Shown: piece after piece, positions 42,277-59,645 of the stretch | Numbering within the stretch: position 1 is the first letter of the stretch | Layout of the letters: each line of letters begins with the position of its first letter | IMG/VR virus record: IMGVR_UViG_3300032331_003707 | Span: 36,346 to 100,345 of that record | Reading direction: 5' to 3' (one strand) | DNA: 64,000 bases | DNA from: a virus | Program-made: the position numbers and the translations under genes | Notes under the pieces: model-generated | What the model was told of the DNA's origin: nothing | What the model saw: only the letters and a program-made list of their open reading frames with translations | Database searches by the model: none

Positions 42277-42711
42277 ATGAATTGGTTATATAATAATACA
42301 ATCGTAAATTCGATTGAGGATCTGCCTGAAAATACTTATGGGTTTATATACAAAGTTATAAGCCCTAATGGTAAATTTTACATAGGTAAAAAAAGTCTTT
42401 ATCATAATGTAAAGAAAAAACTTACTAAAAAAGAATTAGCAGAACAAACAGGTCCTGGGAGAAAGGCTACTACTAAAGTCACTCAAAAAGAATCTGATTG
42501 GAAAACATATTATGGTTCTTCTAAAGAATTAAAAGAGGATATAACAAATATAGGTAAAGAAAACTTTACTAAAGAAATATTAAGAATTTGTTATACTAAA
42601 AAATCATTAACATATTGGGAAATATCATATCAATGTAAAGAAGATGTCTTATTAAACAGTACGTACAACGATAATATATTAGGTAAATTTTTTCGTAAAG
42701 ACTTGGAATAA
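42277..42711 (+). CDS. GIY-YIG nuclease
   Basis: A 144-residue protein. YGFIYKVISPNGKFYIGKKSL at residues ~21-41 is the GIY-YIG catalytic strand pair; WKTYYGSS, FTKEILRICYTKKSLTYWEISYQ supplies the catalytic Glu helix. It resembles T4 SegE-like and other free-standing GIY-YIG endonucleases. It could be a homing endonuclease or a nuclease that processes phage or host DNA. It is placed between structural genes and the primase. Confidence 0.8.
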   Translation: MNWLYNNTIVNSIEDLPENTYGFIYKVISPNGKFYIGKKSLYHNVKKKLTKKELAEQTGPGRKATTKVTQKESDWKTYYGSSKELKEDITNIGKENFTKEILRICYTKKSLTYWEISYQCKEDVLLNSTYNDNILGKFFRKDLE

Positions 42712-43667: not shown

Positions 43668-44476
43668 TTGAAAAAAATGTAAACGTAAATAAAAAATCTG
43701 TTACTCGTATTCTCCAAGTTGACCCTACATCTAAGAGAGTTAACATAGCTGATAACAGATTCTATAGCAGAAATGAAGATTATTACCCATCAGTAACAAG
43801 TATTTTACAATTTTTACCTAAAGGTAAATTTTTTGAAACCTGGCTTAAAGATGTAGGGCATAATGCTGATGTTATTTCTAGGAAAGCAGCAGATGAAGGA
43901 ACACAAGTCCATGATGCTATTGAGCGTTACTTATTAGGTGAAAAAATAGAATGGTTAAATGAAAATGGATATTCAAATTACTCATTAGACGTTTGGAAAT
44001 TAATTTTAAAATTCCATGATTTCTGGGCTACTGTTAAACCAACACTAATTGAAAGTGAAATCCACTTATTTTCAGATAAGTATAAATTTGCAGGAACTTG
44101 CGATTTAGTTGTTGAAATTAATGGTGAAAAATGGCTATTAGATATTAAAACTTCAAACTCAATCCACACAGCTATGGATTTACAATTAGCTGCTTATACT
44201 CAAGCATGGAATGAGACATTTGAAGAAAAAATAGAAAAGAATGGTATTATTTGGTTAAAATCATCTAAACGCGGAGAAGATAAAAGCGGCAAAAAAATAC
44301 AAGGTAAAGGATGGGAAATTTATGAACCAACACGTACTATTGAAGATAATTTTAAATTGTTTGAACACGTACATGAATTGTTCAAACTAGAAAACCCTAA
44401 CCCAAGACCATCATCAGAACAATTCCCTATGGAAATTCAGATATCCTCTGATATTTATGACAAAAATAAAGAATGA
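43664..44476 (+). CDS. PD-(D/E)XK exonuclease, Cas4/RecB-like
   Basis: A 270-residue nuclease. His83 in GTQVHDAIERYL, Asp147 in AGTCDLVVEINGEKWLLDIKTS (Asp160, Lys162) and QLAAYTQAW form the Cas4/RecB-type catalytic motif series. No Fe-S Cys cluster is present, so it is the PDDEXK_1-like single domain. It probably processes DNA ends during replication or recombination and is coupled to the primase and the following nucleotidyltransferase by 4-nt overlaps. Confidence 0.85.
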   Translation: MIEKNVNVNKKSVTRILQVDPTSKRVNIADNRFYSRNEDYYPSVTSILQFLPKGKFFETWLKDVGHNADVISRKAADEGTQVHDAIERYLLGEKIEWLNENGYSNYSLDVWKLILKFHDFWATVKPTLIESEIHLFSDKYKFAGTCDLVVEINGEKWLLDIKTSNSIHTAMDLQLAAYTQAWNETFEEKIEKNGIIWLKSSKRGEDKSGKKIQGKGWEIYEPTRTIEDNFKLFEHVHELFKLENPNPRPSSEQFPMEIQISSDIYDKNKE

Positions 44477-45435
44477 TATCACTAGTTAGTATCTTTAAGG
44501 ACTTAATCCTTGAAGGAGGAAACGTATTTGGCACTACAGCCCCTATCAAACGGGAGTATATTCAACCTACTTTAGATAAATTTACTAAAGAATTAAAACG
44601 AATTTTTCCCAAAGTTACTTTTAGCTTTGAATCTCTAGGATCAGTTGGAAAAAAAGCTGAATCGGGAGACATAGATTTAGGATTTAGTGCTAATAACATT
44701 ATTTCAAATGATGGTACTCCATTATTTGATAAATGGGGAATTAGTCCTCAAGAATTTCAAGTTACTTATGATCAAATCCGTAAACGATCTAAAACCGCTA
44801 CTGAAGCTCAAAGTAAACTTAGAGCTATGCTTCAACTTATAGCAACTAAGATAGAAAATGAATCTGAAACCATAGGCACAGACACTAAAGCATCAGGATC
44901 AGGATCAATATACTGTGCTTTTCCTCAATATGATGAATCAGGAAATACAGTTGGTGATAAAAGTGTGCAAATTGATATTAATGTAGGTAATTTAGATTGG
45001 CTTAAATTCAGTTACTATTCTAATACTTATAAAGATAATGTAAAAGGATTACATAGAACCCAATTAATGTTATCTATGTTTCAAGCATTAGGATTATCAT
45101 TTACTCATGCTACTGGGGTTAAATCAAAAGAAACCGGTGAAACTATAGCTACTAACCCTGGAGAAGCTATCCAAGCTCTTAATGATGGGTATGGAATAGA
45201 ATTAACTCCGGATGTAGTAAATGATTATTTTGAATTAATGGGATATATTAAGAAAAATATCCCTAAAGATAAATTTAATCAAATATTAGATATTTACCTA
45301 AAAATCCTTGATTCTACTAGAGCTGATATCCCATATGATCTACAACAATATTGGATTAAAAACCAAGACCGATTAGGTCTTAAAGGAAAATTCCTACCAG
45401 ATGACTCAAAATTAACCCAATATAAGAAAGTATAA
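44473..45435 (+). CDS. Pol-beta-type nucleotidyltransferase, capsid-targeting-like N-terminus
   Basis: A 320-residue protein. It opens MISLVSIFKDLILEGGNVFG, like other N-termini in this block. ESLGSVGKKAESGDIDLGF has the GS...DxD motif (Asp66, Asp68) of pol-beta nucleotidyltransferases, and VQIDINVG may supply the third acid. The rest is helical. The enzyme could add nucleotides to RNA, proteins or small molecules. It directly precedes a giant protein with two more such domains. The helical N-terminus suggests packaging in the head (inference). Confidence 0.72.
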   Translation: MISLVSIFKDLILEGGNVFGTTAPIKREYIQPTLDKFTKELKRIFPKVTFSFESLGSVGKKAESGDIDLGFSANNIISNDGTPLFDKWGISPQEFQVTYDQIRKRSKTATEAQSKLRAMLQLIATKIENESETIGTDTKASGSGSIYCAFPQYDESGNTVGDKSVQIDINVGNLDWLKFSYYSNTYKDNVKGLHRTQLMLSMFQALGLSFTHATGVKSKETGETIATNPGEAIQALNDGYGIELTPDVVNDYFELMGYIKKNIPKDKFNQILDIYLKILDSTRADIPYDLQQYWIKNQDRLGLKGKFLPDDSKLTQYKKV

Positions 45436-48400
45436 TGTCAGGTTCAATCGGAGCTAATAGAATCCCTAGAAAAGCTGTTGACCCAACAGTTAAAAAATAT
45501 ATTGAAAATATTTTAAAGAAATATCCTCCTTTTAGAAGTGCTAAAATATCTGGGTCATATAATACTACTGTAAAATCAGATCATGGTGATTTAGATTTAG
45601 TGATCCATGTTGATGCAGGTGAAGATGATAAAAAAACTCTTAAGAAAAAATTTGCTGAATATTTAAATTCATTACCTGATGATGTAATTGTTCCATTTAA
45701 AGCAGGACGTCATCAAGGTAAAAAAACAGCAGGTACTGGGGATATAGTTATTACTCAAATCCCAATAGAAGGTTACCCTGATCTAACGGTTCAAGTAGAT
45801 AATATGATTGTTACTTCTGAACAGGAAAGTGATTATAGAAAAAACTTTTTAGATATACCTGGTGAGAAACAAGCTTTATTAATTGGATTAGCAAAAGCTA
45901 TATTAATAGAAGAAGATCCTGAAACTGTAATTAAACGTTTAGGTATAAAAAATCTTCCACCTCTTGAAGATAATCAAGAATTTGAATTTAACCTATCATC
46001 AAAAGGTTTAACTTTACGTTTAGTAACGTTAGATAACTTTAAAGAAATTGGGCGTAATGATATTTGGAGTTCATATGATTGGAATGACATAAGTAAACTA
46101 TTTACCAATTATAATTTAAATTTACCATTTGATGAGTTATTAAAACAAGTAAAAAATTCTATAAGTAATCCTCGTTCTAGAAACAGAATTAAAGGATTAT
46201 TTAAATCTATGTTAGTAATTGGAGCAGGTGAAAAAGGAACACCTAAAGGAGACAATAAGGAATTAGCCCTACAGAAAGTAGATTCAATTTTAGAACAATT
46301 GGCTGCTTCATATATAACTGAAGACGCTACCTCTCCTATTATAGCTCTTTACCCTGGTAAATTTAAACCACCACATAAAGGACATTTAGATGTAGTTAAT
46401 CAACTTGCTTCTCTCCCTAATGTAGAAAAAGTAATAGTCTTAATTTCACCAAAACCTCATGAAGGTATCACAGCTGAACAAAGTTTAAATATATGGGAAA
46501 AATTATATTTACCATTAATAAACAACCCTGATAAAGTTAAATTTACCATATCTCAAGTTACACCTGTAAAAGATGTTTATGACATCATAACAGACAACCC
46601 AGACACAAATTTCATAGCAGCATATGGAAAAGAAGACGCAGGCCGTTATAGTAAACTAAACTCAGAAAGAGTTAAAACATATGATGCTGGAAATGTTGAA
46701 GGTATAAGTGCTACCGATTTAAGATCAGCTTTAAATTCTCAAGGAGATATAACTCCTTATATTCCTAAAGATGTTTCTCCAATTAAATATCTTGAAACTC
46801 TTGGAGTTTTGTTACATGAAAGTTTAAATGAATATACCAATCAATCTACATTAAATCCTGTAGTGTTTGATGGATTAGAAATTAAACCTAAGGTAAAAGA
46901 TATACTTATAAAAATTGCTAACGAATTTTGGAATTCATTAGAATTAGATGTTGATTATGAAGATATTTTACTTTTAGGTAGTTCTGCTAATTACAATTGG
47001 ACTCCATATTCTGATATAGATTTACATATTTTAGTAGATTTTGATGAGTTTGAAGATCCTAAAATAGCTAAAAAATTCTTTGATTTAGCCAAATCAAGAT
47101 TTAATGATACTCATGATCTAAAAATTAAAAATAATGATATAGAGGTATATGTTCAAAATTCTAAAGAACCTAATGCTAGCATAGGAGTATATTCTTTACT
47201 AAATGATGAATGGTTACAAGAACCTCAATACGGAAAAATTAAAATTCCGGATAATGAAATAGAAAATAAAGCTAAACCCTTTAAATCTAAAATTGATAAA
47301 ATCTTAAGAACAAAACCTACATCTAACAACTATGATTTTTTAATTGATTCTATAAAAGGACTCCAGGACAAACTTAAAAAATTCAGACAAATTGGATTAG
47401 AAACAGGTGGTGAATATTCAATTGAAAATTTAGCTTTTAAAAACCTACGCAATACAGGTTATATTGAGAAACTTCTTAATTACAAGACTGAAGTAATGGA
47501 TAAAGTATTATCTATTAAAGAAATTTTTGATAAACCTGTAGATGCTTACCCATTCACTGAATCAGGAGATGGAACATATATGTTTGAATCTGACAGTGGA
47601 AATCAATATGTTGTCTATATAGATGTTGCTAGTGAAAACAGAATTTCTATAGACTTTGGTATAGCCGATGAAACAGGTGATGTAGATTACCCTGAAACAA
47701 ATGTAGGTGAATTATATAAAGTAATGTCTACTATTATAGCAATTGCTAAAAGTTATGTAAACCAACACCCTGAAATAGAAATTATTTCTTGGTCATCTGT
47801 AGCAAAAAGAGGACAAAAGAAAATTGGAGATACTCAACGTGATAAACTTTATAAATTGGTTGTTAAAAAACAAGCAGGACTATCTGATAAAGATATTAAA
47901 TTTATTAACGGTGAATGGTGGGCTTATTTAAAAGGATATAACCCATTATTTGAAAAAATGTCCTCTACAACTGAATTCCCAGAACCATTTACGTATGAAG
48001 ATCTTATAGATATAGACAAATATGCAGATGATGCTTTAAACCCAATAGATGTTAATCTTGACCCTAAGTCAAATGGGCATTTTTTAGATAGAGCTATTGA
48101 AAGAGGTATAACTAAAGATGAATTAAAGGATTTCTTTGCTAGATTAGGATTAAAAAAAGATAGTTTAAAATATTTCTTTACTAAAGCAAAAGAAAAAGGA
48201 GACAATGATGTTGTAGCAACAGATAAAAAAACAAATATTAGTATTCCTTTTGAAGATACAACTTCAAGTGTTAAAGATCGTATGGCGAATAGAATTAAAT
48301 CTATAGGCGCTAAAACAGTACATAAAAAATCTAATTTTCATACCCCAAATGTTCGACTTACTTTTGCTGAAAATGAAAAAGATACATTTGGATTAAATGC

Positions 48401-48899
48401 TTATGCTAGAGAATTGGCTAAAGAATTAGAAGAAGAATTAAAAGAAGCTAATAATATTAAAACAAGTAAAACTAAACCACTAATGAATATTTTGGTATTA
48501 GATTCTGAAGATAAATCTTCTTTAAAAGAATTTAAAAAACACTTGGCTTCTTTAACTAATTATATGATCGATAACGGATATAATGTTTCTCCTCTTCCTA
48601 AAATAAAATTTATCAATAATGATGTAGAAAATGCTCAAAATGTACTAGGAACAACTGCATATTATAACCCAAATGATAAATCAGTTACTTTGTTTACATT
48701 AAATAGACATCCAAAAGATATATTACGTTCATATGCTCATGAAATGGTTCATCATAAACAAAATTTAGAAAATAGATTAACTAATATCTCTGGACAAAAT
48801 ATAAATGAAGATGACTATTTGAAAGAAATTGAAAGAGAAGCATATGAGGAAGGAAATATGATGTTTAGAAGTTGGGAAAACGGATTAAATAAAAAATGA
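45435..48899 (+). CDS. Multi-enzyme fusion: two NTases, HxGH cytidylyltransferase, metalloprotease (1154 aa)
   Basis: A 1154-residue fusion with at least five parts. Residues 35-125: pol-beta nucleotidyltransferase (SGSYNTT, Asp52/Asp54). Residues 300-450: cytidylyltransferase/NMNAT-like domain with HKGH (314-317) and ISATDLR (424-430). Residues 480-620: second nucleotidyltransferase (LLGSSANY, Asp527/Asp529). Residues 880-975: a domain opening HFLDRAIERGI. Residues 1090-1145: zincin HEMVHH (1102-1107) with EIEREAYEEG. Short helices ending YITE (293-296) and LNE (464-466) precede domains 2 and 3. Marine T4-like phages have shorter HxGH proteins of this type; such a long assembly is unusual. 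Confidence 0.8.
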   Translation: MSGSIGANRIPRKAVDPTVKKYIENILKKYPPFRSAKISGSYNTTVKSDHGDLDLVIHVDAGEDDKKTLKKKFAEYLNSLPDDVIVPFKAGRHQGKKTAGTGDIVITQIPIEGYPDLTVQVDNMIVTSEQESDYRKNFLDIPGEKQALLIGLAKAILIEEDPETVIKRLGIKNLPPLEDNQEFEFNLSSKGLTLRLVTLDNFKEIGRNDIWSSYDWNDISKLFTNYNLNLPFDELLKQVKNSISNPRSRNRIKGLFKSMLVIGAGEKGTPKGDNKELALQKVDSILEQLAASYITEDATSPIIALYPGKFKPPHKGHLDVVNQLASLPNVEKVIVLISPKPHEGITAEQSLNIWEKLYLPLINNPDKVKFTISQVTPVKDVYDIITDNPDTNFIAAYGKEDAGRYSKLNSERVKTYDAGNVEGISATDLRSALNSQGDITPYIPKDVSPIKYLETLGVLLHESLNEYTNQSTLNPVVFDGLEIKPKVKDILIKIANEFWNSLELDVDYEDILLLGSSANYNWTPYSDIDLHILVDFDEFEDPKIAKKFFDLAKSRFNDTHDLKIKNNDIEVYVQNSKEPNASIGVYSLLNDEWLQEPQYGKIKIPDNEIENKAKPFKSKIDKILRTKPTSNNYDFLIDSIKGLQDKLKKFRQIGLETGGEYSIENLAFKNLRNTGYIEKLLNYKTEVMDKVLSIKEIFDKPVDAYPFTESGDGTYMFESDSGNQYVVYIDVASENRISIDFGIADETGDVDYPETNVGELYKVMSTIIAIAKSYVNQHPEIEIISWSSVAKRGQKKIGDTQRDKLYKLVVKKQAGLSDKDIKFINGEWWAYLKGYNPLFEKMSSTTEFPEPFTYEDLIDIDKYADDALNPIDVNLDPKSNGHFLDRAIERGITKDELKDFFARLGLKKDSLKYFFTKAKEKGDNDVVATDKKTNISIPFEDTTSSVKDRMANRIKSIGAKTVHKKSNFHTPNVRLTFAENEKDTFGLNAYARELAKELEEELKEANNIKTSKTKPLMNILVLDSEDKSSLKEFKKHLASLTNYMIDNGYNVSPLPKIKFINNDVENAQNVLGTTAYYNPNDKSVTLFTLNRHPKDILRSYAHEMVHHKQNLENRLTNISGQNINEDDYLKEIEREAYEEGNMMFRSWENGLNKK

Positions 48900-49435
48900 T
48901 TAGTTTAACACAAATTTACCAAGAGGGCGTTCTCTCTCCTAATTACACGCTTTATTGTGATATGGATGGAGTACTATGTGACTTCGATTCCCGATTTGAT
49001 TACTTCACAGGACTTTCTCCTGAAGAATATAAAAATAAATTTGGAAATAAAAAGTTTTGGGACCTAATTGATAACCAAGTAGGAGTACCATTTTGGTCTA
49101 ACATGCCCTGGATGCCAGAAGGAGAACTTCTTTGGGATTACATTAAAAAATATAACCCTGTTCTTCTTTCCTCACCCTCAGAAAATAATGAATCTCGTTT
49201 AGGGAAACGTCTTTGGGTAGAAAAACACATTAATAAATATCTCCCACCAGCTTCACCTAAAACCGAATTAATTCTTGCAGCTAGACACAATAAACAAGAT
49301 TATTCAACAAAAACTTCAATACTTATAGACGATCGCCCTGATACTATTTCAGAATGGAACTCCCATAGTGGGATTGGAATTTTGTTTAGATCAACAGGCC
49401 AAACCATTAAAGACTTAAAAAAAATAGGATTATGA
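48896..49435 (+). CDS. HAD-like 5'-nucleotidase/phosphatase
   Basis: A 179-residue HAD hydrolase. The N-terminus MISLTQIYQEGVLSP resembles the block's targeting helix. The catalytic motif DMDGVLCDFD (Asp22/Asp24) opens the domain; LLSSPS is motif II and ILIDDRPDTI motif IV. It is of the 5'(3')-deoxyribonucleotidase type. It overlaps the giant enzyme and the following gene by 4 nt, so all are co-translated. The substrate is probably a nucleotide. Confidence 0.8.
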   Translation: MISLTQIYQEGVLSPNYTLYCDMDGVLCDFDSRFDYFTGLSPEEYKNKFGNKKFWDLIDNQVGVPFWSNMPWMPEGELLWDYIKKYNPVLLSSPSENNESRLGKRLWVEKHINKYLPPASPKTELILAARHNKQDYSTKTSILIDDRPDTISEWNSHSGIGILFRSTGQTIKDLKKIGL

Positions 49436-49839
49436 AACTCCACCAACTCAAAAAAATCATCATCGAAAATCTCACTGCTCACTCCCCAGAACTAATTTCA
49501 TCTCCAGATGAATCCCCAAAATTCCCAGGAGTTAACCAAGTTAAAGACTTCTTCGTAGTAACCCTCCCAGCATCATCATCTCCAGAAAGTACTGTAAGAA
49601 GAACTAATGTATTTGATGATATTCCTATGGATGGAACTCATGGAGTATATTTAAGTGAAGCTGAAGCTACTCGTGAATCTAAACGTTTAACTCAAGAATA
49701 TTCTTCTCAATTAAAAGAGTTAGAAGAAACTATGGCTGAAGTTAGAGCTCAAGAAGCTGAATTAAAAGAAAGAAAAAAAGAAGCTGCTGAAAGAATTAAG
49801 CAGATGAAAGGTGATAAGAAAAAAGAAACCAAAAAATAA
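49432..49839 (+). CDS. Coiled-coil protein with targeting-like N-terminus (135 aa)
   Basis: A 135-residue protein: MKLHQLKKIIIENLTAH at the start, a Ser/Pro-rich stretch with NVFDDIPMDGTHGVYLSEAEA, then a Lys/Glu coiled coil (LKELEETMAEVRAQEAELKERK). Scaffold-like composition. Function unknown. Confidence 0.6.
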   Translation: MKLHQLKKIIIENLTAHSPELISSPDESPKFPGVNQVKDFFVVTLPASSSPESTVRRTNVFDDIPMDGTHGVYLSEAEATRESKRLTQEYSSQLKELEETMAEVRAQEAELKERKKEAAERIKQMKGDKKKETKK

Positions 49840-49844
49840 AAGTA

Positions 49845-50414
49845 ATGTCTGATAATGTTTTAAAAAAAGAATTCCAACAAAAAGATGTTCAACGTCTTCG
49901 TAATATTTTAACTAATAAGCACGGAGAAAAAACAATTGTAGGGATAGGTTATACCAAACAACAAGAATTCCATGAAGATGGAGATATATGGGAAGAAGAT
50001 GGTCGTACTTGGACTATTAAAGATGGGATTAAACAAAATATTACTAAACTAGATAAAGCTAAAGAATCTATTGTAGCACCTTTATTTTGCCCTTGTTGTA
50101 AAAATTTAATGAAGAATAAGCATGATAATGCTTTCTATCTTCAATATAAACGTTGTTTTAATTGTCAAGTAGATTTTGAAACTCGCCTTAGAATTAATGG
50201 CCAATGGGAAGATTATGAAAAAAATATTGTTAATTCTGATGTAGATGATATGATAAGTGATTTTTCTGTATGGATGGAAGAACATATGAATGCCTCAGAC
50301 GAATCATTCATAACAGAAAGGGGAGATGTTGAAAAATGGGTTGGTTCTTCGAAACAAAAATTATTAGAAAATAAAGAAGAAACAATAAAGTATTTACAAA
50401 GTTTAAAAAAATAA
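49845..50414 (+). CDS. Zinc-ribbon phage protein (189 aa)
   Basis: A 189-residue protein with a zinc ribbon near residues 81-105 (FCPCCKNLMKN...RCFNCQVDFE). It continues LRINGQWEDYEKN. I recall this family, a CPxCxxxM/CFxCxxxFE ribbon plus GxWxxYE, from many T4-like phages with no established function. No targeting-like N-terminus. It may bind nucleic acid or another protein. Confidence 0.72.
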   Translation: MSDNVLKKEFQQKDVQRLRNILTNKHGEKTIVGIGYTKQQEFHEDGDIWEEDGRTWTIKDGIKQNITKLDKAKESIVAPLFCPCCKNLMKNKHDNAFYLQYKRCFNCQVDFETRLRINGQWEDYEKNIVNSDVDDMISDFSVWMEEHMNASDESFITERGDVEKWVGSSKQKLLENKEETIKYLQSLKK

Positions 50415-50417
50415 TTA

Positions 50418-50428
50418 ATATTTATATA
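50418..50428 (+). promoter_or_regulatory. Class III (late) motif, variant
   Basis: ATATTTATATA, 15 nt before ATG 50444. Confidence 0.5.
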
Positions 50429-50443
50429 TAAAAACATATAAAC

Positions 50444-50923
50444 ATGAGCAATAATTTTAGTATAAGTGAATGGAGACGTCAACAACTTCACAAAGAAATA
50501 ATAACAGAAGACCTTACGCGTATATCAGAAAATGAAGAAGAAGCTGATATGAAAAAATACCGTAAAGAAGTTTTACAACAACTTTTAACTTGGTATAAAA
50601 AACAAGACAAACCAGACCAGAATATGGTTAAAAAACTTGAAGGAGAAATTGGTAATCTTAACGAAGGTAAAGTTACTGTTAAGTCAATTAAGTTTTCTGA
50701 TTTAAGTGATAAAAATCTTTTACCTACTAATATAGGCATGGGTTCGTCTCGAAAAATTAAAGACGAAGATGACTTTAAAAATTGGAAAGCTGATTTTCTT
50801 AAAAAATATGGTAATATTGAATTAGAAAAAGGCAATGCCGGATGGAAAGCATCATCTAAGCATGAAGCAAATAAACAAGCACAAGCAGACTTTGACAAGA
50901 ATGCTAAAAAAAATAAAAAATAA
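50444..50923 (+). CDS. Charged helical protein (159 aa)
   Basis: A 159-residue charged protein: FSISEWRRQQLHKEIITEDL at the N-terminus, a helical body, then VTVKSIKFSDLSDKN and a Lys-rich tail. The opening helix ends in ITE, matching the (I/L)xE pattern of prohead-protease sites. Function unknown. Confidence 0.6.
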   Translation: MSNNFSISEWRRQQLHKEIITEDLTRISENEEEADMKKYRKEVLQQLLTWYKKQDKPDQNMVKKLEGEIGNLNEGKVTVKSIKFSDLSDKNLLPTNIGMGSSRKIKDEDDFKNWKADFLKKYGNIELEKGNAGWKASSKHEANKQAQADFDKNAKKNKK

Positions 50924-50930
50924 AATTACC

Positions 50931-51299
50931 ATGAACGAATTTGCAAAACTAATATCATATCTATTTCATTCAAGAACCCAAGCTCACATATTTCATCTTC
51001 AAACTGACTCATTTGCAGCTCACTCTGCTTTAAATGGATATTATGATGCAATTATTGGGTTAACTGATGGATTAGTAGAATCATACCAAGGAAAATATGG
51101 TATTTTAACCAATTACTCTAATTTTAGTATATTAGAATATAAAAGCTGTGAGGAAGTTATTATGTATTTTCAAGGTTTAGATATGACTATTGAAAAACTA
51201 CGCAAATCAATACCCCAAGATTCATATATCCAAAACCAAGTTGATACTATAGTAGAATTAGTTTCTTCTACTATTTACAAACTTAAATTCTTAAAATAA
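50931..51299 (+). CDS. Ferritin-like-fold phage protein (122 aa)
   Basis: A 122-residue helical-bundle protein. ATG 50931 is chosen; longer readings overlap the upstream gene. LISYLFHSRTQAHIFHLQTDSFAAHSALNGYYDAI then LVESYQGKYG match a phage family (HSRxQxHIxHLxTxSxAxHxALxxYY) with a Dps/ferritin-like pattern, similar to DUF5856 as I recall. The His/Glu positions could bind metal. Possibly protective against oxidative damage; unproven. Confidence 0.7.
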   Translation: MNEFAKLISYLFHSRTQAHIFHLQTDSFAAHSALNGYYDAIIGLTDGLVESYQGKYGILTNYSNFSILEYKSCEEVIMYFQGLDMTIEKLRKSIPQDSYIQNQVDTIVELVSSTIYKLKFLK

Positions 51300-51658
51300 T
51301 GGAATCTAATTTTAATCAAGGAAAAAAGGCTATTTCTAACAGACTTAGAAACCTTATTATTATCCCTGAGAAAATACGAGAATTCAGACAAGAATTAAAC
51401 CAAAAGTTTCTTAGCGGAGAAATCACCAAATATGAATTTGATGAAGCCTCAGCTTATTTAGATAAAAAAGAAAACGAACACTACTCTAAAACCCCAGGAC
51501 TTAGAGAAGCATTAATCGAGGTTTATTCTAAAATAGAAGAAGAACTCTGCCCAGCTGGAAAAAGATATATTACTAAACGTAAAGCTGCTGGTGAAAAATC
51601 ATCAGCCTATCTTTCAGGACGTGCTGTAAAAGTGTGTAAGGGTCAAATGAAGGGATAA
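51299..51658 (+). CDS. Basic conserved phage protein (119 aa)
   Basis: A 119-residue protein. The C-terminus CPAGKRYITKRKAAGEKSSAYLSGRAVKVCKG is a basic, two-Cys module, recalled from several marine T4-like phages. The N-terminal part is helical and charged. It starts on the last base of the previous stop and ends on the next start. It may bind nucleic acid in the particle. Confidence 0.66.
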   Translation: MESNFNQGKKAISNRLRNLIIIPEKIREFRQELNQKFLSGEITKYEFDEASAYLDKKENEHYSKTPGLREALIEVYSKIEEELCPAGKRYITKRKAAGEKSSAYLSGRAVKVCKGQMKG

Positions 51659-51933
51659 TGACTAAAAAAGAATTACATGAAATAATTTATGAGTCATTAC
51701 GTGATTGGTTTAAAAAAGAAGACTGGGTTCGTATTGATACCCAAGGTAATATAACTGGCCCATGTGGTACTATGAAAAAAGGTCAAGCAACTACTCGTTG
51801 TTTACCTAGAGCTAAAGCAAATAGTTTAACTAAAGCAGAACGTGCTTCTACATCTAGAAAAAAAGTAACAGGTAGTAAAAAAGGTAAACAATTTGTTTCT
51901 AACACATCCAAAGCCAAAGTTAAAAAAAAATGA
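51658..51933 (+). CDS. Basic CGT/RCLPxAKA-type phage protein (91 aa)
   Basis: A 91-residue, very basic protein. A targeting-like helix (ELHEIIYESLRDWFKKE) is followed by the conserved WVRIDTQGNITGPCGTM, RCLPRAKA and SLTKAERASTSRKK. The CG(T/G)...RCLPxAKAxSLTxxER module is widespread in marine phages, function unknown. The Lys tail suggests DNA binding, for example inside the head. Confidence 0.7.
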   Translation: MTKKELHEIIYESLRDWFKKEDWVRIDTQGNITGPCGTMKKGQATTRCLPRAKANSLTKAERASTSRKKVTGSKKGKQFVSNTSKAKVKKK

Positions 51934-52079
51934 TTAAACTAACCGACATATTACAAGAAATGATAGCTAATACTAAAATTATTTGTGATAAATGTGGCTG
52001 GAAATGGAAAATAAAAGATGGAGGAGATGATTTATTTATGTGTCATAAATGTGGCCATGATAATGCTTCATCTTATTAA
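51930..52079 (+). CDS. Zinc-finger micro-protein (49 aa)
   Basis: A 49-residue protein, ATGA-coupled to the previous gene. MIKLTDILQEMIAN is a targeting-like helix; CDKCGWKWK and CHKCGH form a four-Cys zinc ribbon with conserved KIKDGGDDLFMC between. I recall similar ribbons (CxKCxWxW...DLxxCHKCG) fused to many phage proteins. Role unknown. Confidence 0.68.
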   Translation: MIKLTDILQEMIANTKIICDKCGWKWKIKDGGDDLFMCHKCGHDNASSY

Positions 52080-52087
52080 AAAATAAC

Positions 52088-52098
52088 ATATTTATAAT
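52088..52098 (+). promoter_or_regulatory. Class III (late) motif
   Basis: ATATTTATAAT, 11 nt before ATG 52110. Confidence 0.62.
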
Positions 52099-52109
52099 AA
52101 AATTATACA

Positions 52110-53243
52110 ATGAAACAACAATTGAGCGAACAATTTTCTCGTATGAAAAAATTAGCGGGTATTAATGAAAATTTTATGACCCCAAAACCATTACCTCCTG
52201 CTTCTGGGGAACATAATCCTTCTACATTATGGGATTCATTAGATCTCCCAACTAGAACTAATGCTCTTGAACCAATTGTTGGACCTGAAGATGCTGGATA
52301 CCTAGCTAGATATAGTTGGTATAATATCCCAGGTAGTGTAGCTAATCAAATTGAATTTGATGATATAGTATCTCATAGAGAAAATACTCCTGTTTCTTTT
52401 TTAGATAAAGAATTAAATGAAATTTTAGCTTTAATAAATGAAGCTGAGAAAAAATCAAAAGAAGAAGAGGAAGAAGAAACACCAGCTGAAGAAGAAGAAA
52501 CACCTGCTGAAGGTGAAGATGAAGCACCAGCTGAAGAAGAAGCTCCTGCTGAAGGGGAAGATGTTGAAGGTGAAGAAGGTCTTGATCCTGAGGTTAAAAA
52601 AATTCAAAGTGCATTAGAATTAGCATATGCTAAAGCTAAAGAATTAGGAGATAAAAAATTAAATGCTCAAATTGGTAATACTATTACTTATTTTACTAAA
52701 ACTCAAGTATTAAAAGCTGAAGAAGGTGAAGGTGAGGAAGGTGGGGAAGTTACTGAAGATTTATTTTCTTCATTAGTTAGAGAAGTAGCTATTGCTCCTG
52801 CTGGGAAACCAAAAGAAGACCCAAATAAAAAACAAGCCCAAGTAAAGGGAAGTATTAATGTTAATGCTTTTAAAAAATTAAATGTCCCTGGTGCTAATAT
52901 TGCTGTCTTAACCTCATCAATAAACAAAATCAAACAAGGTCTTTCAGCAGATAAACTTAGCACTAGTGAAAAAGCAGAATTAGCTAAGACATTTGCTGAA
53001 ATGATTCGCACTAAAAACGATTCTCTTCTTAATCAAATCTTCAGCATCCTTAAAAATGTTGAACAAGCCCCAGCAAAAGCTCCTGTAACTGAAAAAAAAC
53101 TTTCTAAAGCTGAAAACAGTGAAAAAGAAAAAATTGTAAAGGGAATGAAAAAAAATAAATCTGAGTTTGTAAAAGATTATGGGAAAGATGCTCAAAAAGT
53201 AATGTATGCTACTGCTACTAAATTAGCCCAAAAGAAAAAATAA
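52110..53243 (+). CDS. Acidic repeat virion/scaffold-like protein (377 aa)
   Basis: A 377-residue protein. The N-terminus EQFSRMKKLAGINENF is shared in style with the gene at 57218. Residues ~110-160 are a Glu-rich repeat of PAEEE/PAEGE units. The C-terminus KIVKGMKKNKSEFVKDYGKDAQKVMYATATKLA is a module recalled from many marine phage proteins (MKKNxxxFxKxYGxxAxxVMYATATKxA). Composition and position fit a scaffold or internal head protein. Its stop overlaps the next ATG by 1 nt. Confidence 0.66.
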   Translation: MKQQLSEQFSRMKKLAGINENFMTPKPLPPASGEHNPSTLWDSLDLPTRTNALEPIVGPEDAGYLARYSWYNIPGSVANQIEFDDIVSHRENTPVSFLDKELNEILALINEAEKKSKEEEEEETPAEEEETPAEGEDEAPAEEEAPAEGEDVEGEEGLDPEVKKIQSALELAYAKAKELGDKKLNAQIGNTITYFTKTQVLKAEEGEGEEGGEVTEDLFSSLVREVAIAPAGKPKEDPNKKQAQVKGSINVNAFKKLNVPGANIAVLTSSINKIKQGLSADKLSTSEKAELAKTFAEMIRTKNDSLLNQIFSILKNVEQAPAKAPVTEKKLSKAENSEKEKIVKGMKKNKSEFVKDYGKDAQKVMYATATKLAQKKK

Positions 53244-53755
53244 TGACTCGTGCTGAATTAATAGATAAAATTAGAGGTATTGTAAAAAAAGTTTACAAAC
53301 CTGTAATTGTAAAAGTTGACTTAGACACAGTCAATACTGGGGTATCCTTAGATATAGAAAGATTCCCATTATTAGCTAAATTCCCATCATTACGAGAAAT
53401 AATCGAAAAACTTCTTACTTCTCAATATGATATCTTTATAGGAGATGTATTATGGGTTGCACCTCGTCCTACTACATTTAAAATTATATTTAATAATGGA
53501 CAAGTATTTTATCTTATAACTACTAATAAAGGATGGATCGCTAAAGTAGAAGGTAAAAAATATTTTATAACCGAACGAAATGAACTAGAACGAGCCTCAG
53601 AAGCTCTTGCACGAATCCTTTCATATGGAAACCCAGCTGATATTGCAGCCGCATCAACTGAAGCACCTGCTGAAGAAGTTCCAGCTGAAGAAGCACCTGC
53701 TGAAGAAGCTCCAACTGAAGAAACACCTGAAGAAACCCCTGAAGAAACAACATAA
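53243..53755 (+). CDS. Protein with PAEE repeat tail (170 aa)
   Basis: A 170-residue protein. Residues 1-125 form an alpha/beta domain (VKKVYKPVIVKVDLDTVN, FKIIFNNGQVFYLITTNKGWIAKVEGKKYF); the last 40 are a repeat of (P/A)AEE units like that in the preceding protein. Sharing of the repeat suggests joint evolution or interaction. Function unknown. Confidence 0.62.
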   Translation: MTRAELIDKIRGIVKKVYKPVIVKVDLDTVNTGVSLDIERFPLLAKFPSLREIIEKLLTSQYDIFIGDVLWVAPRPTTFKIIFNNGQVFYLITTNKGWIAKVEGKKYFITERNELERASEALARILSYGNPADIAAASTEAPAEEVPAEEAPAEEAPTEETPEETPEETT

Positions 53756-53776
53756 ATTTTTAACATAAACCAAAAA

Positions 53777-54400
53777 ATGAAAAATAAACTTACCGAAGAA
53801 AAAATTGAACAATTACTTCTAGAATTAATTGAAGAAGGATTATTTGATAGATTAAAATCTAAAGCAACTGGAGCTGTAGCTGGTTTAAAACAAACTGGAA
53901 AGAACTTAGGTGCGTTTTTAAAAGGTGATGCTTCTGCTATCGGAGATCCAAAACTTCAAAAAGCAACAGCTCAACTTAAATCAAAACTTGATACTATCGC
54001 TAAAGATTTATCTTCAGCCCAAGAAGATATGGCTACTCTATTCCCAGCAGCTACTATAAAATCTTTACCTGGAGATCTTCCAACTATAATAAGTAATTAC
54101 CAAAAATCTTTAACTGTTATGGGTAATGCTACTAAAAAGATTATATCTCAAATTTCAAACCCTCCTAAATCAAAAGGTGATGACAAATCATCTGAAGAAA
54201 AAGGTAAACAACCTCAACAAAAAGCCGCTCAACCCCAACAAAAAGGTAAACAACCACAACAAAAAGCTGCTCAACAAAAACAACCCAACAGAAACCCAGC
54301 AACTGGAAGATTTACTAAAAAAGGAGAACCAGCTCGTGACCCTAAAACTGGAAGGTTTGTTAAAAAGACTTTAGAAGAACTTCTAAAACAATATAAATAA
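53777..54400 (+). CDS. Basic repeat protein with targeting-like N-terminus (207 aa)
   Basis: A 207-residue protein. The N-terminal helix EEKIEQLLLELIEEGLFDRLK ends in acidic residues. A helical core follows, then a Gln/Lys-rich repeat (GKQPQQKAA units, ~residues 142-170) and two NPATGRFTKKG / DPKTGRFVKK repeats. Disordered and basic at the end, so a possible DNA-condensing head protein. Confidence 0.62.
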   Translation: MKNKLTEEKIEQLLLELIEEGLFDRLKSKATGAVAGLKQTGKNLGAFLKGDASAIGDPKLQKATAQLKSKLDTIAKDLSSAQEDMATLFPAATIKSLPGDLPTIISNYQKSLTVMGNATKKIISQISNPPKSKGDDKSSEEKGKQPQQKAAQPQQKGKQPQQKAAQQKQPNRNPATGRFTKKGEPARDPKTGRFVKKTLEELLKQYK

Positions 54401-54407
54401 TTTAGTT

Positions 54408-55259
54408 GTGGATATTTTTACAAAATTCCTAAATAGCGTTTCTCATAAGTTTCCTAAAGGTTACCCTGATATGAATGATGCTGATGATGTTAAACTTTTA
54501 GAATCTTTACTTAAACCATACATCTCAGAAACAGAACAACCTGAAGGGGAATCTTCTGAGGAATCAACAATATCTACCCAACAACAAGAACTTCAAAAAA
54601 TTATTGATGTTATAGATAAAGTTGAATCAGATGATAAGATAACAAAAACCAAATTATTTGACTTACTTGCAGATTATACTTACAAATATTATAACTCTGA
54701 ATTAGGGGATATTAAAAAAGTATTCCCCAACCCTGTGTCTACACTTGGAAGTTGGAGAGACTATGTTGAAAGAAAAGAAAGCAATGTAGGTAAAGAAATA
54801 GAACAAGCTGTAGAATTATACTCTCAGGAACAAGGCGTAGAAGCATCATCTATAAGAGGCAAAGGAACAGATGTTAATATAGATGGGAAAGAAGTTGAAA
54901 TTAAATCATCATCAGGTAATACCATAACTACGATGCTTCAAACTTCATTCTATAAAAATAATCCTAATAAATTTTATTTATTTGCTAGTAATTCATCTAA
55001 ATCTGATTTAACTATTCGTATAGTATCAAGTGAACTATTATATAGATTAAGTTTAGGAGATGATATAGCAGATGAGCTAGCAACTAATAAACAATCACAA
55101 AAATTACTAGACCAAATAAATACAGGTTTAGAAACATTAGATTTTCCACATTTAATACAAACATCATTAACAACAGGTGAAAGCTTAGATGTTAAAAAAT
55201 CTTTTAAAGTAGGAAAAAATATTAAAGTTAGATTTGTAATCTATATTGAACCTCAATAA
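54408..55259 (+). CDS. Restriction-enzyme-like PD-(D/E)XK protein, GTG start
   Basis: A 283-residue protein with a GTG start 7 nt after the previous stop. NVGKEIEQAVELYSQ, then GKGTDVNIDGKEVEIKSSSG (Asp155, Glu164, Lys166) is a PD-(D/E)XK core of the type seen in restriction endonucleases, followed by FYLFASNSS. The N-terminal 70 residues are acidic. A nuclease within the internal-protein-like cluster could act on host DNA after injection. The family is tentative. Confidence 0.65.
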   Translation: MDIFTKFLNSVSHKFPKGYPDMNDADDVKLLESLLKPYISETEQPEGESSEESTISTQQQELQKIIDVIDKVESDDKITKTKLFDLLADYTYKYYNSELGDIKKVFPNPVSTLGSWRDYVERKESNVGKEIEQAVELYSQEQGVEASSIRGKGTDVNIDGKEVEIKSSSGNTITTMLQTSFYKNNPNKFYLFASNSSKSDLTIRIVSSELLYRLSLGDDIADELATNKQSQKLLDQINTGLETLDFPHLIQTSLTTGESLDVKKSFKVGKNIKVRFVIYIEPQ

Positions 55260-55269
55260 TATTTATAAT
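55259..55269 (+). promoter_or_regulatory. Class III (late) motif
   Basis: ATATTTATAAT, starting on the last base of the previous stop codon; ATG at 55283. Confidence 0.62.
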
Positions 55270-55282
55270 AAATAATACTACT

Positions 55283-55900
55283 ATGGGATGTGCTTGTGGA
55301 TGTAATACTTGTGATAAATCACCAATGTTGATAGAATCAAAACAATATGATTCTCCTATATCTGAAGGTTTACGATATCATATGGATTTTAAAGTTCCTC
55401 TTAATGACACAGTATATAGACCTGGGTCAAAAGCCCATATTAATCTAATATTTGAAGCTCGTAATCTGTGGAAGGAAGGAATTATTAAAGTTCAAGATTT
55501 AGACAGAAAATTATTTGAAACTACAGATTTAGGTAAAATCGGGTTTTATGAAGGTAAGACAGTACCATTAGATTTTCCACTAATGGAAATTGAAACATTA
55601 ACTGAAGCAGAATTAGAAGAAGAAAAGAAAAATCCACCAATAGGAAAACCTAAACGTGGTGGTTCTAAAAAATTCTATGTTTATGTTAGAGACCCTAAAA
55701 CCAAAAATATTAAAAAAGTATCATTTGGACAAGCAGGGATGTCTGCAAAAATTAATGACCCAAAAGCGCGTAGAGCATTTGCTGCTAGACATAAATGTGC
55801 TCAAAAAACAGATAGAACCAAACCTAGCTATTGGTCATGCCGTCTACCAAGATATGCTAAACTACTAGGATTAAAATCAACATTCTCAGGATACTGGTAA
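55283..55900 (+). CDS. Cys-rich N-terminus, YWSCR-module protein (205 aa)
   Basis: A 205-residue protein. It starts MGCACGCNTCDKS, a compact Cys cluster likely to bind metal. The C-terminal 70 residues (KFYVYVRDPKTKNIKKVSFG, ARRAFAARHKCAQK, SYWSCRLPRYAK) form a module that I recall from very many T4-like phages (RHxC...YWSCR). The function of that module is not established. Late-promoter gene. Confidence 0.72.
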   Translation: MGCACGCNTCDKSPMLIESKQYDSPISEGLRYHMDFKVPLNDTVYRPGSKAHINLIFEARNLWKEGIIKVQDLDRKLFETTDLGKIGFYEGKTVPLDFPLMEIETLTEAELEEEKKNPPIGKPKRGGSKKFYVYVRDPKTKNIKKVSFGQAGMSAKINDPKARRAFAARHKCAQKTDRTKPSYWSCRLPRYAKLLGLKSTFSGYW

Positions 55901-55901
55901 T

Positions 55902-56717
55902 ATGAATACAAATTATATCAAACAAATTATTAAAGAAGAATTAGAAAAAATTCTTAATGAAGCTTTCTTTAACATCAGACCTCAAAAAGGAGGATCAGGT
56001 GGAAGAAGGTACATCCCTAAATTTTTTGTCTTCCCAGGAAATGTCAGAGAAAATCTTAAAGATTACTTTAAATTTTATGGAAATACAATGTATGTTGATC
56101 CTCAAGTATTAATAGCACTTGGTTACCTTACTCGAGGAAGACAATCATATGATAAAACACAGGATTTTCCATCTTTAACTAAACTTTTACAAGATAAACT
56201 ACCACAACCTGTTAGATTATCTATTAAAAAAGGAGCTGAAGGGCAAAGAATGCAAGATATTGGTGGTAAAAAAATGGTTCCTTTAAATTTAGATATTACT
56301 AAAGATGAAGCAGGGAATTATTTAATTAAAAACCCATATACTAATATTAGTGAATATAAATCACACCTATTAGAAGCATTATTACTAGAAAAAAAAAACG
56401 TATCTAATGTATATCAACTAGAATCATTACTAGTTACTGATACTAGTGTTCGTAACCAAGCTGAAATCTTATCTGATATTCGCTCCCTTTCTGGAGTTAC
56501 TATTGTATCCACAGATCCACTTAATCCTGATCAAAATGTTCAAAATAAAGATAGGGTTGAATCTAAACTTTATTTAAAAATCGATCCACATCCATTTTTA
56601 GGTAAGGGAGGATTTGGAGAAAAAGAACTTGAAACTATTTATTCAAGCATTAAAAAAATTAAAGGTGTTACTGTATTTAGAGTAATTGGTAAACCTGATA
56701 GAAAAACATTACGATGA
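55902..56717 (+). CDS. Protein with targeting-like N-terminus (271 aa)
   Basis: A 271-residue protein. YIKQIIKEELEKILNEAFF is the best example of the block's N-terminal helix. Later DIRSLSGVTIVSTDPL and KLYLKIDPHPF, IKGVTVFRVIG look like a ferredoxin-like beta-alpha-beta pair, a feature I recall in phage proteins containing DIRSLPGVTxV. No catalytic motif. It overlaps the next gene by 4 nt. Confidence 0.65.
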   Translation: MNTNYIKQIIKEELEKILNEAFFNIRPQKGGSGGRRYIPKFFVFPGNVRENLKDYFKFYGNTMYVDPQVLIALGYLTRGRQSYDKTQDFPSLTKLLQDKLPQPVRLSIKKGAEGQRMQDIGGKKMVPLNLDITKDEAGNYLIKNPYTNISEYKSHLLEALLLEKKNVSNVYQLESLLVTDTSVRNQAEILSDIRSLSGVTIVSTDPLNPDQNVQNKDRVESKLYLKIDPHPFLGKGGFGEKELETIYSSIKKIKGVTVFRVIGKPDRKTLR

Positions 56718-56971
56718 TTAAGTTAATAGATTTACTTAAAGAAGAAAAAGGAGAAAAATATCCTCCTTATATGTACTCTCCTGTAGGATTTGGTTGTCAC
56801 GTTTGTGAATATTATTATAAAGAAGATGGATTACATCATTGTAGTAATAAAGAATATCAAAAATATATGGGTACTAATGAATTAGTAGATAATGAAGGAA
56901 ACCAAATTAAGGATCCATCAAAATGGTGTTCTAATTGGTTCCACCCTAATATTCAAGATGAGACCGTATAA
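56714..56971 (+). CDS. Cys-motif protein with targeting-like N-terminus (85 aa)
   Basis: An 85-residue protein: MIKLIDLLKEEKGEKYP at the start, then GFGCHVCEYYY, HHCSNKEYQ and KWCSNWF. Four Cys in this spacing, with aromatic neighbours, resemble small Fe-S (HiPIP-like) or zinc proteins. Function unknown. It overlaps the cupin-like gene. Confidence 0.66.
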   Translation: MIKLIDLLKEEKGEKYPPYMYSPVGFGCHVCEYYYKEDGLHHCSNKEYQKYMGTNELVDNEGNQIKDPSKWCSNWFHPNIQDETV

Positions 56972-57221
56972 CGATATAGAAATTACAGATAAATATATTA
57001 TTCGTGAATTTAACGAAAATATAGATCCTATTGAATTACTGTGGCATCGTGATAGAGAAGATCGCGTTGTAGAAATTATAGAAGGAATAGATTGGAAAGT
57101 TCAACTCGAAGATCAACTTCCAATAACTCTTACAAATTCTCCAATATTTATACCAAAATACGAATGGCATCGTGTTATTAAAGGAACAGGAAACTTAAAG
57201 TTAAAAATACATAAAAAATGA
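56958..57221 (+). CDS. Cupin-like small phage protein (87 aa)
   Basis: An 87-residue protein; ATG 56958 is chosen over longer readings inside the previous gene. LLWHRDREDRVVEIIEGIDWKVQLEDQLP and IFIPKYEWHRVIKG follow a compact beta-barrel pattern (WHxDxExRxVxIxxGxxWxxQ...IPxxxxHR) common in T4-like marine phages. His residues could bind metal. Role unknown. Confidence 0.7.
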   Translation: MRPYNDIEITDKYIIREFNENIDPIELLWHRDREDRVVEIIEGIDWKVQLEDQLPITLTNSPIFIPKYEWHRVIKGTGNLKLKIHKK

Positions 57222-57958
57222 ATAAAGAATTTTTAAAAATGCAAAAATTGGCTGGTTTAATTACTGAAAGTCAATACAAATCAAAAATAAACGAAGCTGA
57301 AGAAGACCCATCAATAAGCGATATTGTAAAAAAAATTACCCAATATCTTAAATCAAATGATTATAACTCATTAGTATTTCTTGATGGAAAGAAAATAGAA
57401 GGAAACCCAGGTGACCCATTCGAAATAATGGGAAAATCTAATGATGGAAATATTTCAGTAGTTGGCCGTGGAAATAAACCAGAATTAATTAAAAACGAAA
57501 TGGAGCATTTACAAAAATGGATTTTAAATAATTTTGATTCTTTAAAACTACAAAGCCCTTTTACACCTGGCCATATGGGGGGAGATCAGCATAATGGTAA
57601 ATTTTGGGTTAAAATAGACTCAGACAAAAAATCAGTAAACGAAGCTGAGGAAAAAACTATTCAAACATATGGTCCAAACTTAGTAGATATGTTAAAAAAA
57701 AATGGTTTTGACACTAAATTTACTACTAATAACTCTGAATATAAAAAAGCCCAAGAATTTGCTAAAACATCAGATAAAAAATTAGCTGTTGTCTACTATA
57801 ACCCTAACATTAAATTTATTTCTGTTACAACAAATCAAAACAATCGAGATGAAGCTTTTAAAATAATTACAAGCCCAGCTGTTGAAAGATTACTCCCAGA
57901 TGGTTATAAGGCTCAAGAGCAAGGAGGTTATTTTATTGAAATTCAAAATCTTAGCTAA
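57218..57958 (+). CDS. Protein with repeated NEAEE segments (246 aa)
   Basis: A 246-residue protein. The N-terminus FLKMQKLAGLITESQYKSKINEAEED resembles that of 52110. A similar segment, VNEAEEK, recurs near residue 140 between two alpha/beta domains; the second contains LVDMLKKNGFDTKFTTNN. ITE and INE/VNE match (I/L/V)xE cleavage-site patterns. The domains themselves were not recognised. Confidence 0.63.
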   Translation: MNKEFLKMQKLAGLITESQYKSKINEAEEDPSISDIVKKITQYLKSNDYNSLVFLDGKKIEGNPGDPFEIMGKSNDGNISVVGRGNKPELIKNEMEHLQKWILNNFDSLKLQSPFTPGHMGGDQHNGKFWVKIDSDKKSVNEAEEKTIQTYGPNLVDMLKKNGFDTKFTTNNSEYKKAQEFAKTSDKKLAVVYYNPNIKFISVTTNQNNRDEAFKIITSPAVERLLPDGYKAQEQGGYFIEIQNLS

Positions 57959-57979
57959 TTTAATTAAAAGAAATAACTT

Positions 57980-58030
57980 ATAGACAGATTCATAGCCTGT
58001 CGCTCTAACAAGAGACAAAATTATGGTAGC
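57980..58030 (+). ncRNA. Possible structured RNA
   Basis: Between two genes: AGACAG pairs with CTGTC-type sequence across a short loop, then GCTCT-AACA-AGAGAC forms a second hairpin, and a strong terminator follows at 58032. No ORF is present. It could be the processed 3' end of the upstream mRNA or a small RNA. Low certainty. Confidence 0.3.
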
Positions 58031-58031
58031 T

Positions 58032-58064
58032 GTGGCACCCCTAAAAAGGTGCCACTTTTTATTT
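58032..58064 (+). terminator. Rho-independent terminator
   Basis: GTGGCACC (58032-58039) pairs with GGTGCCAC (58048-58055), followed by TTTTTATTT. Ends the internal-protein block before the oxidoreductase promoter. Confidence 0.9.
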
Positions 58065-58093
58065 GGATTTTAGCAAAAAATATATTATCTTTA
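58062..58093 (+). promoter_or_regulatory. Class II promoter
   Basis: TTTGG at 58062-58066, 19 nt, TATCTTTA at 58086-58093; ATG 58100 follows after only TAGCAT. Overlaps the terminator T-run. Confidence 0.8.
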
Positions 58094-58099
58094 TAGCAT

Positions 58100-59404: not shown

Positions 59405-59408
59405 ATAT

Positions 59409-59645
59409 ATGAGTATAGACCCAACATTTCAAACCAAGAAATACACATCACCTGATGGTACAGTACGCCATATGAAAGATGGTAAACTACATAACTGGGA
59501 AGGACCAGCATTAATTACACCTGAAGGTAAAGAAGAGTATTTTATTAATGGTTTCCAACACACTAAAGATAGTTGGAAAAAAGCTAGAAAAGATGGTGTA
59601 GGGTTACCATGGTATAAATCAAGTGTGGCTAAAGCTAGATTTTAA
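59409..59645 (+). CDS. Small conserved phage protein (78 aa)
   Basis: A 78-residue protein with DGTVRHMKDGKLHNWEGPALITPEGKEEYFINGF, a pair of MORN-like beta-hairpins (xDGxLHxxxGPAxxxPDGxxEYxxNG) that I recall from many phages and bacteria. It ends GLPWYKSSV. It is co-transcribed with the oxidoreductase (4-nt gap). Function unknown. Confidence 0.72.
   Translation: MSIDPTFQTKKYTSPDGTVRHMKDGKLHNWEGPALITPEGKEEYFINGFQHTKDSWKKARKDGVGLPWYKSSVAKARF

Follow-up and report, generated by a model that had tools for sequence, protein, structure and literature searches.

A candidate effector polyprotein of a T4-like phage with predicted prohead-protease sites between its enzyme domains

We analysed a window of 64,000 nucleotides (positions 36,346 to 100,345 of the IMG/VR virus record IMGVR_UViG_3300032331_003707) from an incomplete T4-like myovirus genome (100,345 bp). 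One open reading frame (ORF) of the window, at 45435-48899 on the plus strand, is intact, starts with ATG and encodes a protein of 1154 aa. Comparison with related sequences makes it likely that this protein is a polyvalent effector protein organised as a polyprotein, which the prohead protease would cleave and which would be packed in the head for delivery to the host.

To define the domains, AlphaFold was run on an alignment of 34 relatives (mean predicted local distance difference test (pLDDT) 75.8); a single-sequence run had been useless (mean pLDDT 41) and was replaced. Six folded units were predicted: a Pol-beta nucleotidyltransferase (NTase), a domain like nicotinamide mononucleotide (NMN) adenylyltransferase (NMNAT), a second Pol-beta NTase, a DUF6934-like domain, an HFxDR domain and a zincin. 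Low-confidence linkers fell at residues 288-292, 459-483, 693-700, 840-849, 980-987 and 1005-1026, and an extra low-confidence stretch, 502-530, lies within the second NTase, in a region covered by few of the aligned relatives. The domain boundaries are those of the predicted structure, whose predicted template modelling score of 0.37 means that the packing of the domains is not determined. Gene, modules and predicted sites are as follows, with an arrow at each predicted cut.

45435-48899, plus strand: whole ORF of the 1154-aa polyprotein gene (ORF call, Pfam, PHROG, AlphaFold)
45435-46295, plus strand: module 1, Pol-beta NTase B (NB), residues 1-287 (Pfam, alignment, fold matches)
46314-46322, plus strand: predicted site ITE-296↓D in linker 288-300; also ILE-287 (pLDDT<50 at 288-292)
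46323-46811, plus strand: module 2, NMNAT/NadD-like HxGH adenylyltransferase, residues 297-459 (PF01467, Foldseek)
46812-46832, plus strand: predicted sites LHE-462 and LNE-466↓Y (pLDDT<50 at 459-479; stand-alone starts)
46833-47513, plus strand: module 3, second Pol-beta NTase, NTase C (NC), residues 467-693 (phrog_36119 at 471-694)
47514-47522, plus strand: predicted site IKE-696↓I (pLDDT<50 at 693-700)
47523-47945, plus strand: module 4, DUF6934-like, residues 697-837 (PF22028, E 5e-5, below the Pfam cut-off)
47946-47954, plus strand: predicted site LFE-840↓K (pLDDT<50 at 840-849)
47955-48362, plus strand: module 5, HFxDRxxERG domain, residues 841-976 (motif HFLDRAIERG at 882-891)
48363-48371, plus strand: predicted site FAE-979↓N (pLDDT<50 at 980-987)
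48372-48446, plus strand: linker helix TFGLNAYARELAKELEE with predicted sites LEE-1000 and LKE-1004 (pLDDT<50 at 1005-1026)
48447-48896, plus strand: module 6, zincin, residues 1005-1154 (HEMVHH at 1102-1107 plus downstream ExE)

The ORF, Pfam matches and motifs confirmed the multi-enzyme fusion that a first-pass annotation of the sequence had claimed, with two NTases, an HxGH domain, an HFxDRxxERG domain and a zincin with HEMVHH. Profile searches for each domain recovered these and added the DUF6934-like domain, which had been overlooked (PF22028 match at residues 704-792). Pol-beta NTase matches (PF01909, PF22600, PF18765) were located at residues 19-72 and 508-567, both NTases carry the GS...DxD signature (GSYNT..DLD and GSSANY..DID), and Foldseek against the PDB matched these folds to DNA polymerase lambda/beta. 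Module 1 starts M↓SGSIGANR without a leader of its own, and its GS..DLD and VQVDN motifs are intact. CTP_transf_like (PF01467) matched residues 305-357 of module 2, around the HxGH motif FKPPHKGH at 310-317, and Foldseek returned NadD/NMN adenylyltransferases (NadD E=2e-5); by motif and predicted fold this module belongs to the HxGH NMN/NaMN adenylyltransferase superfamily, with a predicted substrate. The HFxDRxxERG domain is swapped as one unit between relatives. In the zincin, which phrog_16532 matches at residues 1092-1147, the HExxH motif and the downstream Glu are invariant in 19 aligned sequences; PDB sequences yielded no relative of it (best hits E 0.25 and 0.87, noise). IrrE-like and cytidyltransferase-like viral proteins were among the Foldseek matches, the IrrE-like ones corresponding to the zincin. 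The polypeptide thus combines at least two disparate activities (Pfam, PHROG, AlphaFold, fold matches) and contains a zincin hub, the common but non-obligatory mark of polyvalent proteins.

It is the position of the candidate sites, not their number, that carries the evidence. [LI]xE occurs in five of the six AlphaFold linkers and [LIF]xE in all six (P about 0.01-0.03 for this protein alone), while mirrored and shifted control motifs gave P values of 0.11 or more for linker placement. Three sites had been proposed in the first pass. YITE stands exactly at 293-296, and its site at 296 falls in a low-confidence linker; the equivalent linkers of relatives contain [LI]xE in 31/32 cases. LHESLNE is present at 460-466 rather than 461-466, and site 466 likewise lies in a linker; stand-alone NTase C genes start M[I/L]xE↓YxTQSTLNP. 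The analysis thus supports both 296 and 466 as sites. LIE at 157-159 exists, but structure prediction placed it inside a folded domain, in a high-confidence helix (pLDDT about 90) in the core of the first NTase that is conserved with the fold in 30/30 relatives examined; we therefore rejected it as a cleavage site. The sites at 696, 840, 979 and 1000/1004 had been missed. The stretch GLVKELILPLFE is one example of a linker helix.

Scans of IMG/VR with NTase B, the separately encoded NTase A, NTase C and the zincin as queries gave about 300 loci. The relatives are strongly mosaic, with lengths between 428 and 1535 aa; in most of them NTase B comes first, the zincin usually stands near the end, and the middle modules vary. 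We examined the 30-33 residues upstream of 127 non-redundant fused domain starts (windows <75% identical) against 500 shuffles. [LI]xE was present upstream of 103 of the 127 starts (81%), versus a shuffled mean of 53 (42%) and a maximum of 68 in the 500 shuffles, which gives z=10.9, not to be read as a probability since the windows share descent even at <75% identity. Control motifs in the same shuffling scheme, which keeps composition, behaved differently (z of 2.2 for E.[LI], 1.3 for [LI]E, 1.4 for [LI]..E, -2.5 for [LI]...E, -0.7 for [LI].D, 3.0 for [LI].K and -3.7 for [AST].E). Domain interiors contain fewer [LI]xE motifs than expected (z=-6.5), and the motif is kept in linkers that otherwise cannot be aligned. 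This comparison over relatives is much stronger than the linker test on the single protein. For the junction of NTases A and B the figure is near 100% but rests on few independent fusions, and the pooled test and a tree were used instead. On this tree of 51 rows, NTase B changed between the fused and the separate state at least four times; the sequence of one relative, L066, breaks off where its contig ends, which makes its label as fused unreliable and leaves the count of changes unaffected. Bacterial genomes yielded no NTase B relatives at the sensitivity of the search used.

Nine or more modules exist in two states, separate and fused, and start after the same [LI]xE in each. In the separate genes this motif closes a T4-like capsid-targeting leader. 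A leader of 14-16 residues (MISLxxxxxxLxE) precedes the start of NTase A, which reads '[LIVF]xE↓GGN[VI]F'. NTase B starts 'M↓SG[SAV][IA]G' when separate and 'L[STN]E↓SG' where it follows a fused NTase A. Corresponding pairs, separate versus fused, were found for the ADP-ribosyltransferase (ART) module ('MIKFLDILNE↓A-KQVGILYHYT' versus 'PGGLEE↓G-KQVGPLYHYT'), the DPKTGTG module ('MIKLIDILLE↓RDPKTGTG' versus 'AKGLEE↓ADPKTGTG'), the zincin YAEPS module ('MVKLSQLLKE↓IYAEPN' versus 'PLNE↓MYAEPS') and NTase C ('MITE↓YQTHSTLNP' versus 'SLNE↓YTNQSTLNP'), with 'NLFPLNE↓YSEG' versus 'KSLNE↓YSQG' as a further pair. NT5C modules come after SLNE↓, LNE↓ and IFE↓, and the FCIS and CWKGYK modules are likewise preceded by the same kind of site, separate and fused. 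The leader of separate NMNAT genes, MNSLVKELIQPLLE↓, recurs inside fused linkers as NKLFKGLVKELILPLFE↓ and as ..LVKELILPLFE↓. A relative that is 97% identical to the window protein (L007) has one more module at the 1000/1004 linker, ~125 aa long and flanked by GLEE↓ and SVEE↓.

Other fused relatives differ in their module content. The 1127-aa protein of L063 (7980-11363) contains an ADP-ribosyltransferase-like module, LYHYTSADGLKGIL, which matches Tox-ART-HYD1 weakly. The protein also has two distinct HExxH motifs, one of them in an extra module ahead of the usual zincin. The 1358-aa protein of L036 (8001-12077) has two 'FCISARG' modules, one after an LKE site and one after an INE site.

T4 gp21, an S77 protease, cuts after L/I-X-E, and a leader of 10 residues suffices for prohead entry (PMC9026906). 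Among five large relatives, the four near-complete ones have a gene for an S77 protease (GELDHP and SSRG motifs, E 1e-30 or better), accompanied in these four by gp23; the fifth, which is probably incomplete, has neither. Homologues of two modules have been reported in virions. The virion proteome of the T4-like cyanophage S-CREM2 includes ORF154, a cytidylyltransferase, as well as ORF155, ORF156 and ORF160 (PMC10665884), and NMNAT-like proteins were reported in virions of S-SCSM1 and S-CBWM1 (PMC9602691). S-CREM2 gp156 is 39% identical to NTase C over 188 aa (E 3e-40). Gp154 is a weak relative of the NMNAT module (E about 1e-5 with the family profile) and begins with the leader MKNFSSFLTE↓A. 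The virion-detected gp160 (L321, 6804-7697) itself looks multi-modular, with CWxGYxxxGxK and DACYHKVKARYDVWPSAY small modules; small modules of this type are separate leader-bearing genes in Flavobacterium-type relatives. The first-pass suggestion that the prohead protease cuts a single chain at (L/I)xE is well supported by the relatives, the structure prediction and the stand-alone virion homologues.

We propose that the chain enters the prohead, most likely recruited by the leader-like helices now within its linkers, or alternatively by binding to the leader-bearing NTase A. A T4 gp21-like (S77) protease would then cut after (L/I/F)xE near 296, 466, 696, 840, 979 and 1000/1004 and would free two NTases, the NMN adenylyltransferase, two small domains and the metallopeptidase. 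The freed enzymes would be injected together with the DNA and start to act immediately. NMNAT may sustain nicotinamide adenine dinucleotide (NAD) early in infection, the NTases may modify host proteins or RNAs, and the zincin may cleave a host protein. Phage NAD synthesis has been discussed as counter-defence (PMC9503650).

Several observations weigh against this proposal. The capsid protein of the relatives reads V[TSV]E↓, that is VxE, at its predicted cut, a position which we take to match E65 of T4 gp23; the protease of this group may accept V besides L and I. Site 979 reads FAE and also departs from L/IxE. The motif is short, and the chain contains 15 copies versus 14.7 expected from shuffled sequence; motif presence alone is therefore a weak argument. 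The polyprotein ORF starts MSGSIGANR without an N-terminal leader, the leaders being located on the upstream NTase A, on separate-gene modules and within linkers, and the NTase A genes of immuto-like phages begin with a bare 'M↓GGN', likewise leaderless. Among the window genes the N-terminal leader motif is marginal (13/20 versus 21/51 genes, p=0.06). The virion support comes from stand-alone homologues in other phages, and the S-CREM2 authors noted possible co-purification of virion-detected proteins (PMC10665884). Finally, the protease of the phage itself is unseen since the contig ends ahead of the head genes.

The junction sites could be relics of fused leader-bearing genes, in a chain that stays an uncut multidomain enzyme, packaged or not. 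The NMNAT linker and other linkers clearly hold a former leader, and many fusions may be recent. However, separate NTase B never has a leader, yet all fused copies show LxE exactly at its start; at NTase B the motif cannot be a leader relic for this reason. The persistence of [LI]xE in unalignable linkers and its avoidance inside domains also speak against relics, and we regard this explanation as rather unlikely. It appears very unlikely that the protein is a cytosolic multi-enzyme fusion with flexible linkers that is never packaged, the motif being a chance by-product of helical linkers. L, I and E are frequent residues in such linkers, and the overall motif count in this protein equals chance, but composition-preserving shuffles and mirrored or shifted motifs failed to reproduce the enrichment, and the two virion homologues are at odds with a purely cytosolic role.

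Cutting by the chain's own protease domain had been offered as an alternative in the first pass. The C-terminal zincin would then process its own chain, before or after injection. Among the domains of polyvalent proteins, for which autoprocessing has been proposed (PMC5512222), zincins are the most frequent, and a zincin is usually present in the relatives. However, fusions that lack a zincin keep the sites (FLGE↓ in L068, FLTE↓ in L073, LNE↓/LTE↓ in L031 and L145), which makes the zincin an improbable processing enzyme. Sites also occur in the leaders of single-domain genes, and L/I-X-E is the specificity of an S77 protease, T4 gp21 (PMC9026906). We consider autoprocessing very unlikely and cleavage by the prohead protease the preferred explanation.

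The polyprotein gene is part of a tightly packed operon with the order primase, exonuclease, NTase A (44473), polyprotein gene, NT5C-like nucleotidase (48896) and many small genes. It overlaps its upstream neighbour by 1 base (TAATG) and its downstream neighbour by 4 bases (ATGA):

44473-45435, plus strand: upstream gene, NTase A (NA), with leader MISLVSIFKDLILE↓GGNVF (leader 44473-44514)
48896-49435, plus strand: downstream gene, NT5C-like 5'-nucleotidase, a fused module in relatives

NTase A, a separate gene in the window, is fused in front of NTase B in several relatives. The run of small genes 3' of the NT5C-like gene leads to the large terminase at 60894. The fragment ends just beyond the terminase and therefore lacks the portal, protease and capsid genes; a search of the contig, which stops before these head genes, with PF03420 (prohead protease) gave no match. 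Many of the small genes at 49432-60830 begin with T4-like leaders ending (L/I)xE (49432, MKLHQLKKIIIE↓N; 50444, HKEIITE↓D; 52110, RMKKLAGINE↓N; 55902, EELEKILNE↓A; 57218, KMQKLAGLITE↓S; 60216, LIKETINE↓F), and they form a candidate block of injected proteins. The gene at 42277-42711 encodes a SegE-type GIY-YIG endonuclease (PF19835) that both PHROG and the annotation of phage immuto call 'NAD synthetase', which looks like a propagated misannotation. Within the first 3.7 kb of the related locus L012, an intein-like insertion (..ECDC LWGESTVTIRDSMTGEI..) apparently splits the large terminase, which is preceded by a GIY-YIG endonuclease-like gene.

The nearest cultured phage, Flavobacterium phage immuto, has an identical gene order. 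Its gene 182 (907 aa, annotated as NMN adenylyltransferase) is the syntenic orthologue and carries NTase B, NMNAT and zincin between the NTase A and NT5C genes; it differs in lacking the second NTase, DUF6934 and HFxDR, and in an extra C-terminal part, and no processing has been reported for it. A predicted cut in gene 182 of this phage (vB_FspM_immuto) follows LAE (..QTLAE↓ALDDGSEVV..). Polyvalent proteins are moreover a described class; the fusion is not unparalleled, although the first-pass annotation knew of no phage protein with this combination. Polyvalent proteins are big phage proteins that join unrelated enzyme domains such as Pol-beta NTases, ARTs and zincin; early injection was predicted for them, and the proposal that they are processed likened them to the polyproteins of RNA viruses (Iyer et al. 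2017, PMC5512222). There, zincin or assemblin-like domains embedded in the chain were held responsible for processing, whereas the protein described here appears to have junction sites for a separate S77 protease and leader-derived linkers; it also differs in its domain set (NTase-NMNAT-NTase-DUF6934-HFxDR-zincin) and in its phage group, here T4-like.

Processing of single head proteins by gp21-type proteases is likewise already known (PMC5694885, PMC9026906). T4 IPI-III and Alt (PMC9026906) share with the present system the short leader ending (L/I)xE, which here is present on modules encoded as separate genes, the involvement of enzymes such as ARTs, and the S77 protease found in relatives. 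They are single proteins that shed end propeptides, in contrast to a multi-enzyme chain with (L/I)xE at its internal junctions and no N-terminal leader of 10-20 residues. For phiKZ gp175 and SPN3US gp245 (PMC5694885), numerous head and ejection proteins are cleaved after xE motifs by a protease of the gp21 type, sometimes at several sites, but the products are trimmed propeptides rather than several enzymes from one precursor. The cyanophages S-CREM2 (gp154), S-SCSM1 and S-CBWM1 are also reported to carry an NMNAT-like enzyme in virions, in S-CREM2 with a leader on gp154 and with the NTase C homologue gp156 as neighbour; there, however, the genes are separate, and gp154 is only weakly similar to the NMNAT module. 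A literature search, mostly without subscription papers and preprints, found no T4-like effector polyprotein with prohead-protease junction sites and no leaders turned into linkers.

Polyproteins are a hallmark of RNA viruses and of retroviruses. If our reading is correct, a tailed DNA phage that matures its injected enzymes via the capsid protease would represent a new logic of effector delivery, and trans-processing would be an alternative to zincin autoprocessing of polyvalent proteins. The simple rule that a module starts right after (L/I)xE would find injected effectors in unannotated T4-like genomes and predict their mature N-termini. What T4-like phages inject, a long-standing question, would thereby become testable in existing virion proteomics through semi-tryptic peptides. 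We lean towards the broader view that a cassette system is widespread in T4-like phages of aquatic bacteria, in which modules bounded by leaders and protease sites are shuffled. Whether a module is encoded as a gene or within a chain would then matter little, as the same mature enzymes would result in the capsid, which would serve as the maturation chamber of an effector polyprotein.

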